Shown here: piece after piece, positions 49,804-59,231 of the stretch
Position numbering within the stretch: position 1 is the stretch's first letter
Layout: each line of letters starts with the position of its first letter
Origin: an uncultured Roseobacter sp.
GTDB lineage: Bacteria > Pseudomonadota > Alphaproteobacteria > Rhodobacterales > Rhodobacteraceae
Length of the DNA stretch: 64,000 bases
Assembly (NCBI RefSeq): GCF_947499265.1
Contig: NZ_CANMNK010000002.1
Coordinates: 1-64,000, forward strand
Reading direction: 5' to 3'
Notes under the pieces: model-generated
The model's database searches: none
Told to the model about the DNA's origin: nothing
The model's input: only the letters and a program-made list of their open reading frames with translations
Position numbers and translations under genes: made by a program

Positions 49804-50997
49804 TTAGCCTTTTACAGCCTTCACGATCTTCTGCGCGCCGTCTTTCAGATCATCGGCGGCGATCACATCCACGTCGGAATTGTTGATGATGTCTTTGCCT
49901 TCCTGAACGTTGGTGCCTTCCAGACGCACCACCAGCGGCACCTTCAGACCCACTTCCTTGACCGCAGCCACCACGCCTTCGGCGATCACATCGCAGCGCA
50001 TGATGCCGCCGAAGATATTCACCAGAATGCCTTTAACGTTGTCGTCGGAGGTGATGATCTTGAAGGCTTCGGTCACCTTTTCCTTGGTGGCGCCACCGCC
50101 CACGTCGAGGAAGTTGGCAGGCTCCGCGCCATAAAGCTTGATGATATCCATCGTCGCCATGGCCAGACCCGCGCCATTGACCATGCAGCCGATCTCGCCA
50201 TCGAGCGCGATGTAGTTGAGGTCGTATTTCGAGGCCTCCAGCTCTTTGCTGTCTTCCTCGGTGGTGTCACGCAGCTCGGCGATGTCGGGGTGGCGATAGA
50301 TCGCGTTGCCGTCAAAGCTGACCTTCGCGTCCAGCACTTTCAGATCACCACTGTCGGTCACGATCAGCGGGTTGATCTCCAGCATCTCCATGTCTTTTTC
50401 CATGAACGCTTTGTAGAGCAGCCCCATCAGGCCCACGCATTGTTTGACCTGCTTGCCCTCCAGCCCCAGCGCAAAGGCAATGCGGCGCCCATGAAACGCC
50501 TGATAGCCGGAGGCCGGATCGACGGAGAAGCTGAGGATTTTTTCGGGCGTCGCCGCGGCCACTTCTTCGATGTCCATGCCGCCCTCGGTGGAGCAGACGA
50601 AGCTGACCCGGCTGGTCTGCCGGTCCACCAGCAAGGCAAGGTACATTTCGGTCTCGATGCCGGAGCCGTCCTCGATGTAGATGCGGTTGACCTGTTTGCC
50701 CACCGGACCGGTCTGGTGGGTGACCAGGGTGCGCCCGAGCATCTTCTTGGCTTCTTCCGAGGCTTCTTCAACAGATTTGGTCAGCCGGACGCCGCCCTTA
50801 TCGCCTGCATCCGCTTCCTTGAATTTGCCCTTGCCGCGCCCCCCGGCGTGGATCTGTGCCTTGACCACCCACATCGGGCCATCGAGCGCGCCAGCTGCTG
50901 TCTTGGCTTCTTCAGCCCGCAACACCACACGCCCGTCGGAGACCGGCGCGCCGTAGCTGCGCAGCAATGCTTTTGCCTGATATTCATGGATGTTCAT
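49804..50997 (-). CDS. sucC: Succinyl-CoA synthetase subunit beta (ADP-forming)
   Basis: The 397-residue ATP-grasp subunit starts [18 protein letters not shown], a normal SucC N-terminus. Further marks are [55 protein letters not shown] in segments, and the C-terminal [15 protein letters not shown]. Its leader carries a paired operator at 51109-51145, 111 nt upstream of the ATG. This makes it the likely head of the suc operon. Confidence 0.96.
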
Positions 50998-51108
50998 GGA
51001 TTTGGTCCCGTGCTTTTGTGGATCGGTTCAGCTCCCGATATAAAACGCGAATTTTCTGCGATGAAACCGGTTTATCCCCAGAGACCGGGTTCACAGCGCG
51101 AAAATTGC

Positions 51109-51145
51109 ATTTTGTGATCACAGCATTTCAGGCTGTGATCACAAA
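51109..51145 (-). promoter_or_regulatory. Paired TGTGATCACA operator upstream of sucC
   Basis: Two perfect palindromes TGTGATCACA lie at 51113-51122 and 51134-51143, exactly 21 bp apart, within a larger perfect dyad TTTGTGATCACAGC/GCTGTGATCACAAA. Read on the sucC strand, the gene-proximal copy is CTGTGATCACAAAAT, identical to the gene-proximal copy upstream of sdhC. There are 111 bases between it and the sucC ATG. A spacing of two helical turns suggests a protein binding as a pair of dimers. The regulator is not identified. Confidence 0.75.
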
Positions 51146-51196
51146 TAATCAGGCAAGATCAATTTTCATATAATGCAGGGGATTCGCAGGGGTATT

Positions 51197-51787
51197 TTAT
51201 GAATCAAAGGTAAACAGACGTCGGGCAGTTTCCACCATTTGATCCTGATACTGTTCCTGCGGCCATTCCCGGATCAGAACCAGGTTTTCCCAATTGCTCA
51301 CCGATAAAATCGACCAGAGCAAATCTGTGGCCGTTTCCGTATCAAGGCGTGGTGTAAGATGGCCATCTTCTGCCAAAGCCAGGATGGCGGCTTCGCAGCC
51401 TTCGCGCATATCCGACATGCGCTTTGCCCAGGCAGCGGATGCTTCCGCATCTTTCGGGGCCATATCCAGCAGCGGTCGTGCGACGCAATAGATTTGTGGC
51501 AGATACGTACACCATGCCAAAACAAAGGCATCAAGACGCGCGCGACCGGTTCGGGCCGTACGGCTGGCTCTTAGCATACCGTCTAAGTCGAGCTTTTTAT
51601 CCAGCGCTTTCGTGGCGGCAATCAACAGATCGGCACGCGAATTGAAATGCAGGTAAATCGCCTGGCGGCTGACACCGGCTTTCTTGGCCACGTCGGAGAG
51701 GCGTACCGCCCCGCCTGCGCCCGAACTCAGCAGGTGCAAGGCCGCGGTGACAATGCGGTCGTATGTGGGAAGGGCGTTTCTTGACAT
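51197..51787 (-). CDS. TetR/AcrR-family transcriptional regulator
   Basis: The 196-residue regulator has the helix-turn-helix in residues about 10-55: YDRIVTAALHLL, LSDVAKKAGVSRQAIYLHF. The C-terminal ligand domain is unassigned. ATG 51787 gives the usual short leader; ATG 51802 is an alternative. The gene lies between the mdh terminator and the sucC operator, with its stop 51 nt from the latter on the same strand. It is a candidate regulator of the suc operon by position only; its own promoter region lacks the operator motif. Confidence 0.8.
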   Translation of the reverse strand: MSRNALPTYDRIVTAALHLLSSGAGGAVRLSDVAKKAGVSRQAIYLHFNSRADLLIAATKALDKKLDLDGMLRASRTARTGRARLDAFVLAWCTYLPQIYCVARPLLDMAPKDAEASAAWAKRMSDMREGCEAAILALAEDGHLTPRLDTETATDLLWSILSVSNWENLVLIREWPQEQYQDQMVETARRLFTFDS

Positions 51788-51843
51788 GGCGTAAAGAACC
51801 ATGCACCTAAGGCACAGTCAACGCCATTTCATCACGTCGCATG

Positions 51844-51889: not shown

Positions 51890-53023
<1,134 letters not shown>

Positions 53024-53044
53024 TTACGGGTGAAGGGGTTGTGA

Positions 53045-53800
53045 GTGCTGACACTGGACTGGATGTTTTTTGCCATCGCAGGGCCCGCGGTGGTGTTTGC
53101 GGGGGTATCGAAAGGTGGATTCGGCTCCGGCGCTGCCTTCGCATCGGCAAGTGTTTTGGCACTGGTGTTGGAACCCGGGCTGGCGCTGGGGGTGATGTTG
53201 CCGCTGCTGATGCTGATCGATGCGGCAACCTTGCGACCCTATTGGCGCAAATGGGACAATAAAGATGCGCTGCTACTGATCCTCGGCGGACTGCCCGGGG
53301 TGGCGCTGGGTGCGGTCTTGTACAAGGTTGCGGAGCCGGATGTCTTTCGTGTGTTGATCGGGGCAATTTCGGTCGGGTTTGTGGTGTGGCAACTGGCAAA
53401 TGCCAACGGCCTGGTACGCCGCGCCCAGCAGATACTTCCCGTTTGGGCGGGCGTGTTGGCTGGTGCTGTTGCGGGGTTTACAAGCTTTGTCAGCCATGCA
53501 GGCGGACCACCGGCAGCTGTCTATCTGTTGTCAAAAGCGCGTACGAAGACCGATTATCAGGCGACGACTGTCCTGGTCTTTTGGGTGATTAACATCGCCA
53601 AATTCATCCCCTACGCTTTTTTGGGCATGTTCACCCTGCAGACCGGTATGGCAAATCTGGCCTTGGCCCCCTTTGCTCTGGCCGGGGCGTGGCTCGGTGT
53701 GCGCGCGCATCATATCATGCCTGAGCGCCTGTTTTTTGCACTGACTTATGTTCTTTTGAGCATCACCGGAGCCAAGCTGATCTGGGATGGCCTGACCTGA
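53045..53800 (+). CDS. TauE/SafE-family membrane permease
   Basis: The 251-residue protein has about eight transmembrane segments in two repeats and TauE/SafE marks such as GVSKGGFGSG near residue 20 and FTSFVSHAGGPPAAVYLL near 150. Members export sulfite, sulfoacetate or other anions, but most are uncharacterised. GTG 53045 follows AAGGGG. It diverges from mdh. The substrate cannot be told here. Confidence 0.87.
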   Translation: MLTLDWMFFAIAGPAVVFAGVSKGGFGSGAAFASASVLALVLEPGLALGVMLPLLMLIDAATLRPYWRKWDNKDALLLILGGLPGVALGAVLYKVAEPDVFRVLIGAISVGFVVWQLANANGLVRRAQQILPVWAGVLAGAVAGFTSFVSHAGGPPAAVYLLSKARTKTDYQATTVLVFWVINIAKFIPYAFLGMFTLQTGMANLALAPFALAGAWLGVRAHHIMPERLFFALTYVLLSITGAKLIWDGLT

Positions 53801-58026: not shown

Positions 58027-58692
58027 ATGATGCGGATGATTGCGATATGTCTGACCGTGATGTTGGGCGCGCGGGCGGGCTATGCCTGCCAATTGGCGCT
58101 TGTTCTGGCCGTGGATGTCTCGGGGTCCGTTGACGAACGCGAATACCAGATCCAGATGCAGGGGCTCGCCACCGCATTGCGCGACGGCACCGTGATTGAT
58201 GCGCTGATCGAACAGGAGGCACAGGTCACGTTGATCCAATGGACCGGGTCTTCCCGACAACGCCAGACCATTCCCTGGCGCGCCATCGGCTCGGCGGCGG
58301 ATGTGACGGGTCTGGCCGATGAGATCGCTGCGAACCGCCGCGTCTGGCGCAACTATTCCACGGCGATTGGCGAGGCGTTGCTTGCGGCAGAACATGCTCT
58401 TGTCGCGGTAACCCATTGCAAAAGAAAGGTTATTGACGTCTCGGGGGATGGTATTTCCAACGAAGGCGTGCTGCCACGCGAGCGTCATGCGTCACTGGCG
58501 GAGATGGATGTGACCGTCAACGCGCTGGCCATCGAAACGGATGACGACGATCTGACGGGCTGGTTTTACGAGAACCTGATCCGGGGAGAGGGGGCGTTTG
58601 TCATCACCGCAAACGGGTTCGAGGATTACCCCGCTCAGATCCGGCGCAAACTGCAACGCGAGACGACCCGGCAATTGAGCCATCTGCCATAA
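58027..58692 (+). CDS. DUF1194 family protein (von Willebrand factor A-like)
   Basis: The 221-residue exported protein has a short signal (residues about 1-20, ending ARAGYA) and a VWA-like fold. The MIDAS-type DVSGSVDEREY is near residue 30, with the TAIGEALLAAEHAL helix and DVSGDGISNEG following. Such proteins probably bind a partner through a divalent metal. It lies directly upstream of the sdhC operator, and its stop ends one base before the first palindrome. Function unknown. Confidence 0.82.
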   Translation: MMRMIAICLTVMLGARAGYACQLALVLAVDVSGSVDEREYQIQMQGLATALRDGTVIDALIEQEAQVTLIQWTGSSRQRQTIPWRAIGSAADVTGLADEIAANRRVWRNYSTAIGEALLAAEHALVAVTHCKRKVIDVSGDGISNEGVLPRERHASLAEMDVTVNALAIETDDDDLTGWFYENLIRGEGAFVITANGFEDYPAQIRRKLQRETTRQLSHLP

Positions 58693-58727
58693 CGTGATCA
58701 CACCTCGGATTACTGTGATCACAAAAT
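58693..58727 (+). promoter_or_regulatory. Paired TGTGATCACA operator upstream of sdhC
   Basis: CGTGATCACA (58693-58702) and TGTGATCACA (58714-58723) are 21 bp apart. The second, with flanks CTGTGATCACAAAAT (58713-58727), is identical over 15 bases to the gene-proximal site of sucC. The distance from the site to the sdhC ATG is 120 nt, similar to 111 nt at sucC. This common layout supports one regulator for suc and sdh. Confidence 0.75.
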
Positions 58728-58847
58728 CGGTGAAATTGGCTATTTTGCTCAAATCGCGCCAATTTACCGCGCCGAATGCGGGCCGAGGTGCGTGACAAGG
58801 CCGTAATAAGCAGTAAAAAGAACAGCAGGGAACAAAAGGAATCTTTT

Positions 58848-59231
58848 ATGGCTGATGTAAATCGGGGCAACCGCCCTTTGTCGCCACACTTGTCGATTTA
58901 TCGCCCCCAATTGACGTCGATGACATCGATCCTGACGCGGATCACCGGCAATGCGCTGCTGATTTCGTCCTTGCTGGTGGTGTGGTGGTTTTTGTCCGCG
59001 GCAACATCGCCTGAATATTTCGCCTATGCCGACGGCGTCCTGACCAGCTGGTTCGGCGATCTGGTCATGACCTTGTCGCTCTGGGGGCTGTGGTATCATA
59101 CCCTGGCAGGGCTGCGGCATCTGATCTGGGATCAGGGCATCGGGCTTGATCTGGATACCGCCTACAAGCTGGGCTACGCGGTCATCGTCGGCTCCGTCGT
59201 TCTGACGCTGCTGACCATTGCAATCGTTTAG
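58848..59231 (+). CDS. sdhC: Succinate dehydrogenase cytochrome b556 subunit
   Basis: The 127-residue membrane subunit starts MADVNRGNRPLSPHLSIYRP, a family hallmark, and has three transmembrane segments. The heme-ligand His lies in LWGLWYHTLAGLRHLIWD. It anchors the complex and binds quinone. ATG 58848 follows AAAAGGA. First gene of the sdh operon. Confidence 0.95.
   Translation: MADVNRGNRPLSPHLSIYRPQLTSMTSILTRITGNALLISSLLVVWWFLSAATSPEYFAYADGVLTSWFGDLVMTLSLWGLWYHTLAGLRHLIWDQGIGLDLDTAYKLGYAVIVGSVVLTLLTIAIV

Follow-up and report, generated by a model that had tools for sequence, protein, structure and literature searches.

The question raised by this locus is which protein acts on two pairs of short palindromes that lie upstream of sucC and sdhC in the window, i.e., the whole stretch of 64,000 nucleotides analysed here. 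A sequence-only reading of the window had described them as a paired operator of a regulator that it left without a name. The shared paired operator before the two genes stood up to analysis while the anonymity of the regulator did not, the motif and the targets both being reported for AkgR of R. sphaeroides in the accessible portions of the literature. The pairs at sucC and sdhC are very probably operators for AkgR, a GntR-family activator with an FCD domain that is encoded outside the window. The genes and sites concerned are as follows.

49804 to 50997, minus strand: sucC, target gene, succinyl-CoA synthetase beta subunit (open reading frame named by homology)
51113 to 51122, minus strand: predicted sucC-proximal AkgR operator, exact match to TGTGATCACA
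51134 to 51143, minus strand: predicted sucC-distal AkgR operator, exact match to TGTGATCACA, 21 bp from the proximal copy
58693 to 58702, plus strand: predicted sdhC-distal AkgR operator, CGTGATCACA, one mismatch
58714 to 58723, plus strand: predicted sdhC-proximal AkgR operator, exact match to TGTGATCACA
58848 to 59231, plus strand: sdhC, first of the sdh genes (open reading frame; match from residue 1 in 19/19 genomes of the genus)

Equivalent bases were 21 bp apart in both pairs, and the two gene-proximal copies had in common the 15 bases CTGTGATCACAAAAT when read towards each gene. Distances to the ATG, which is at 50997 on the minus strand for sucC and at 58848 for sdhC, were 111 and 120 nt, respectively, from the outer edge of the shared 15-mer and 115 and 124 nt from the proximal 10-mer TGTGATCACA. 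Thus, the two perfect palindromes upstream of sucC, the same pair with a single change in one copy upstream of sdhC, the identity over 15 bases and the interval of 111–120 nt before the ATG were all as the sequence-only reading had given them. Its judgement that the arrangement was unlikely by chance agreed with results from shuffled sequences (6 window matches to TGTGATCACA at up to one mismatch vs a shuffle mean of 1.57, with 6 reached in 1/100 shuffles), with the presence of 7 exact matches in the whole genome of 5,227,754 bases (0 for the reversed pattern) and with conservation in the family. The 7 exact matches comprised 3 in the window pairs, 1 at a GntR-type gene and 3 inside ORFs, and only two pairs of the TGTGATCACA form were found in this genome. 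The larger dyad previously described at sucC (CAGC...GCTG around the pair) does exist in this genome but was lost from several congeners in the alignment and is therefore not part of the signal. No AkgR-type palindrome at up to one mismatch was found at sucA in the window.

Conservation of the pairs was evident both in the genus and in the family. Among the 19 genomes of the genus, a pair was found upstream of sucC in all (18 at 21 bp and one at 20 bp) and upstream of sdhC in all, here always at 21 bp; sucC matches in the 18 other genomes were 93–98% identical. The family was sampled as 198 genomes, one per genus, with a pair defined as TGTGATCACA-N11-TGTGATCACA at up to two mismatches. Such 21-bp pairs were present in 163/198 genomes, most of which had two pairs, and the reversed control gave 0 in every genome. 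When 30 pair loci were inspected (one per genome, chosen by the search), all pairs were directly upstream of sucC (23), sdhC (6) or, in L039, sucA (1). The sequence-only reading had staked its proposal on the pair recurring upstream of TCA genes in relatives and being conserved at sucC and sdhC orthologues, and both were found. At named loci with 200 nt of upstream sequence, pairs were noted at 8/9 for sucC and at 4/4 for sdhC; the ninth sucC locus, without a pair, was only 49% identical and is probably a paralog. A second sucC-like gene (G000:C3:297229-298374, 52% identical) was also noted in the genome under study and is, we guess, possibly that of a malate-CoA ligase.

Seven family genomes contained three pairs (G042, G115, G197, G022, G125, G135 and G191). 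The third pair was at fumC in G042, overlapped another listed pair in G197 and, with 2 mismatches, was inside an unrelated ORF in G115 (L339). The fumC pair (G042:C16:228292-228322, L334) has the 21-bp spacing, and the adjoining gene product scored above the NCBIfam cut-off for class II fumarase; in G042, the module would thereby also cover the TCA step that follows.

Spacing was determined by searching 61 genomes for exact GTGATCAC pairs whose equivalent bases lay 11 to 41 bp apart; 51 of the genomes matched. Among the at least 75 pairs, the 75 listed included 66 at 21 bp, 3 at 20 bp, two at 18 bp and one each at 24, 30, 31 and 36 bp, and no match to suc, sdh, mdh or akgR was found in the loci surrounding the pairs at 18, 18, 24 and 31 bp. 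All annotated 20/21-bp GTGATCAC pairs were at sucC or sdhC except the one upstream of fumC, the annotated set being 28 search-chosen and 15 fetched loci that partly overlap each other and the 30 pair loci above. Counting only promoters with a pair at up to 3 mismatches, the spacing was 21 bp in 69 and 20 bp in 12 of 81 distinct sucC promoters, and 21 bp in 47 and 20 bp in 6 of 53 distinct sdhC promoters. Upstream of sucC, some Rhodobacter relatives (L238, L242 and L251) had a third palindrome placed at the same 21-bp interval; in L251 (20187 and 20208) there was no mismatch.

These data also bear on an alternative in which the palindromes work at the RNA level, forming an attenuator hairpin, or belong to a repeat that is mobile or structural. 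In favour of this alternative are the self-complementarity of each copy and, in this genome, the larger dyad around the sucC pair; yet in the genus alignment the palindromes were kept while the spacers diverged, the spacing was 21 or 20 bp in 69/75 pairs listed, the sdhC pair was upstream of conserved -35/-10-like elements and the genome itself contained only two such pairs. An RNA hairpin was rejected on the divergence of the spacers, and this family of explanations is extremely unlikely.

Among DNA-binding proteins, the positional candidate of the sequence-only reading was the product of the gene adjoining the sucC pair.

51197 to 51802, minus strand: TetR-family gene between mdh and sucC (TetR_N domain; rejected as regulator of the pair)

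Binding of this protein to the pair beside its gene, which lies on the same strand as mdh and sucC with 53 bp between its stop codon and the distal site, is almost certainly not the explanation. Though the pair is conserved, a homologue was beside sucC in only 5/19 genomes of the genus, counting this one, and beside the pair in 0/53 family loci at E 1e-10 (7 of the 53 being sdhC or sucA loci and a few ending at contig ends). The candidate was thus rejected for want of conservation beside the pair. Known operator types fared no better. The CRP consensus is TGTGA-N6-TCACA and that of FNR/FnrL is TTGAT-N4-ATCAA; the half-sites of TGTGATCACA abut with no N6 spacer and the sequence of the pair departs from the FNR consensus, so the earlier statement that neither site type is present was upheld. 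Binding sites for CceR, [AGT]GTT-N6-8-AAC[ACT], were without a match in window positions 58660-58860, 50990-51200 and 52800-53100. CceR (RSP_1663), a LacI-family protein, differs from AkgR in this motif, but sdh and mdh of R. sphaeroides are likewise among its predicted targets in the accessible part of the source (PMC4344238).

The best-supported regulator of the pairs, rather than the neighbouring TetR-family protein, appears to be AkgR, the predicted ortholog of which was found elsewhere in the genome.

Contig C7, away from the window: P0001, AkgR ortholog, with GntR and FCD domains

P0001 matched PF00392 (E 9.8e-14) and PF07729 (E 1e-16), both above gathering scores, and has the N-terminal GntR winged helix followed by an FCD domain of the GntR family, FCD type (FadR subfamily). 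The segment VSMTPAREAVRRLVAEGAL, which we take to be the DNA-recognition segment, was identical in P0001 and P0002. By sequence, the closest solved structure was E. coli McbR (YncC; PDB 4p9f, E 1.9e-20), a distant homologue for which no link to TCA genes was met.

For comparison with R. sphaeroides, AkgR was taken to be RSP_0981, with its activity and motif in that species as reported by others; Imam et al. 2015 reportedly found that AkgR directly activates TCA genes. As far as the accessible portions of those reports go, RSP_0981 resembles the regulator proposed here in belonging to the GntR family, in its predicted control of sucCD (RSP_0967-6), sdh (RSP_0974-6) and sucAB (RSP_0965-62) (PMC4344238), and in the presence of GTGATCAC among AkgR sites (PMC6365646). 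The motif GTGATCAC was present at two of these targets, sucC and sdhC, both here and in the family.

Genome G051 was treated as R. sphaeroides-like from its 100% match to the reaction-centre L chain of that species, the query sequence being presumed correct (next best, 85%). In G051, mdh, sucC, sucD and sucA are on one side and sdhC, sdhD, sdhA, sdhB and then akgR on the other, an order that fits the RSP locus numbers and from which the tag RSP_0981 was inferred for G051 akgR. A contig scan with the G051 AkgR protein gave Cereibacter ovatus (96%) as the first named match among the best 80 matches; R. sphaeroides itself was absent from those 80. P0001 was 79% identical to the G051 ortholog and only 36% identical to the next match in its own genome. 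Thus, one high-identity copy, apart from the paralogs, is shared with G051. Both genomes have pairs at sucC and sdhC, those of G051 with one mismatch and perfect, respectively. The two differ in that akgR is here on another contig and not beside sdh, and in that akgR here has a palindrome at its start codon whereas the G051 ortholog had none at up to one mismatch. Overall, the pairs and P0001 appear, with high confidence, to be a well-conserved regulator-operator system of known kind.

Association of the regulator with the pair was also evident across the family. With orthologs of P0001 accepted at E <= 1e-45 and up to 15 candidates scored per genome, the 21-bp pair was present in 160/178 genomes with an ortholog vs 3/20 genomes without (Fisher p 2.5e-12, one genome per genus and kinship ignored). 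Of 18 genomes with an ortholog but without a 21-bp pair at up to two mismatches, 12 do have a pair, either at 20 bp (11 genomes) or, in G058, at 21 bp with 3 mismatches; five others (G061, G122, G147, G155 and G166) yielded no usable sucC or sdhC promoter and G054, without a pair, had a marginal P0001 match that was the weakest named. Among genomes that lacked the ortholog, no pair was found at the sucC or sdhC promoters of G004, G014, G017, G029, G048, G083, G101 and G167, with one degenerate single site, TGCGATCACG, noted at sucC of G017; G172 yielded no promoter, and eight others without a pair were judged by pattern scan only. Pairs without an ortholog were found in G019, G096 and G114, the assemblies of which are 77–100% complete in 50–320 contigs. 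Thus, apart from these exceptions and with kinship ignored, regulator and operators were present or absent together.

This distribution also bears on the possibility that the pairs are in fact bound by another GntR/FCD paralog, e.g., that at G000:C1:311941 (36% identical). Paralogs of about 36–40% identity are common in the genus, and use of GTGATCAC has been proposed, in the accessible part of the source, for a relative with no more than 32% identity (PMC6365646); the motif alone therefore does not prove which paralog binds. Such a paralog is nonetheless a very unlikely binder. Pairs and a P0001 ortholog occur together in G001, G006, G011, G012, G015 and G016, where no second match was listed at E below 1e-30, no exact site was found near the paralog of this genome, and the pair was mostly missing where the P0001 ortholog was missing. 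The 32%-identical relative belongs to the PS417_07240-type regulators of deoxyribonate clusters in Pseudomonas, which are like AkgR in family and in the proposed palindrome GTGATCAC but differ, in the same partial account, in having a catabolic cluster as target and one palindrome upstream instead of a pair (PMC6365646).

The exact match at a GntR-type gene noted above precedes the first ATG of akgR itself (L007) by 5 bp. Together with the domains of P0001 and its co-occurrence with the pair, this site favours the guess of the sequence-only reading that a GntR/FCD protein is the regulator. Around the akgR start, mostly near -18, a site at up to two mismatches was present in 54/59 P0001-like loci vs 1/59 for a coding control, and in only 14/79 Cereibacter-like named orthologs, both sets being best matches and each biased towards its query. 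Autoregulation of akgR is thus apparently clade-dependent, in this genus and its nearer relatives, and the closeness of the palindrome to the akgR start suggests that it is negative. In the genome as a whole, 49 matches to YGTGATCACR included the 4 window pair sites, 40 inside ORFs, 1 at akgR and 4 possibly intergenic, as placed by simple, approximate ORF calls; on this approximate basis the AkgR regulon would be compact. Acetate genes were rejected as targets when two exact sites on contig C5 that had seemed near acs were both found to be inside ORFs.

Putative promoter elements were noted between each pair and its gene.

51061 to 51066, minus strand: putative sucC -35, TTTCAT, first base 51.5 bp from the proximal operator centre
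51038 to 51043, minus strand: putative sucC -10, TTATAT, 17-bp spacer, from the genus alignment
58792 to 58797, plus strand: putative sdhC -35, GTGACA, 73.5 bp from the proximal operator centre
58814 to 58819, plus strand: putative sdhC -10, TAAAAA, 16-bp spacer

A generic sigma-70 promoter scan gave no promoter-like site in the sucC or sdhC region of the window. At sdhC, GTGAC[AT] was found downstream of the pair in 49/53 distinct promoters with a pair, at clustered distances, and in 42 of these 49 (18 of the 49 being congeners) a TA-hexamer started 16 bp past it, in the manner of -35 and -10 elements. Among 31 non-congeneric cases, a set that leaves out the other congeners, GTGAC[AT] was separated from the centre of the proximal operator by 61.5–63.5 bp (24), 73.5–74.5 bp (3) and 84.5, 52.5, 40.5 and 19.5 bp (1 each), the value for the window being 73.5 bp. 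The seven deviant distances were within 1.5 bp of whole 10.5-bp turns from 62.5, although the period was judged after the data were seen and GTGAC at some of the short distances may have arisen by chance. In a simulated null, 0/2000 sets were as clustered, a test of clustering and not of periodicity alone in which related genomes are not independent. The sdhC distances support, by inference, activation through contacts made on one helical face. A block at 58755-58772 in the window (CGCGCCAA-T-ACCGCG), past the sdhC operators and ahead of the putative -35, was strongly conserved in the genus and was found in only a few other family members or genera.

At sucC, T was favoured at the first two positions of the putative -35 (0.96 and 0.93 bits in 63 non-congeneric promoters), and a -35 at about 51.5 would make the two window promoters differ in this distance by 22 bp, or about two turns. 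No quantised promoter distance was found among the 81 sucC promoters. GGTT[CT] around this element was present in only 25/81 sucC promoters, at distances that were scattered outside the genus, and phase at sucC was therefore not established.

In the mechanism proposed, each TGTGATCACA palindrome would bind one AkgR dimer, and two dimers would sit two helical turns apart on one DNA face, about 85–130 bp ahead of where transcription of sucC(D) and sdhCDAB is predicted to begin. From this position the dimers would assist RNA polymerase, in the case of sdhC at a helical phase that is fixed, and co-activation of sucC(D) and sdhCDAB would promote flux from succinyl-CoA to fumarate. The single palindrome at the akgR start would confer autoregulation, probably negative, in the genus and its nearer relatives. 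A broader reading is that AkgR acts generally as tandem dimers two helical turns apart (21 or 20 bp, with an occasional third unit at an equal step) that must face the side of the helix on which the -35 lies, i.e., as a phase-dependent upstream activator, and that the array is a portable module which was placed before sucC and sdhC and, in certain lineages, also before sucA or fumC. This reading was put lower because the sucC promoters gave no quantised distance, and we consider the chances of its being right to be evenly balanced.

A full-text literature search with TGTGATCACA gave no match with a title on bacterial gene regulation. The paired geometry with 20/21-bp spacing, the helical register at sdhC, the loss together with akgR, the clade-dependent self-site and the fumC and sucA pairs were not found described in the portions of the AkgR literature available, though the primary 2015 paper may describe some of them. 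The pair is the likely operator through which a central activator of the TCA cycle would act in much of a large bacterial family, and it is tied to one gene, with rules that can be tested (21/20-bp spacing, helical phase to the sdhC promoter, and loss together with the regulator) and by which a sucCD/sdh switch would be predictable from sequence in the family. With regard to the source organism, a photosynthetic reaction-centre L-like chain, 74% identical to that of R. sphaeroides, was noted at G000:C10:3887-4708, and the organism is therefore probably phototrophic.
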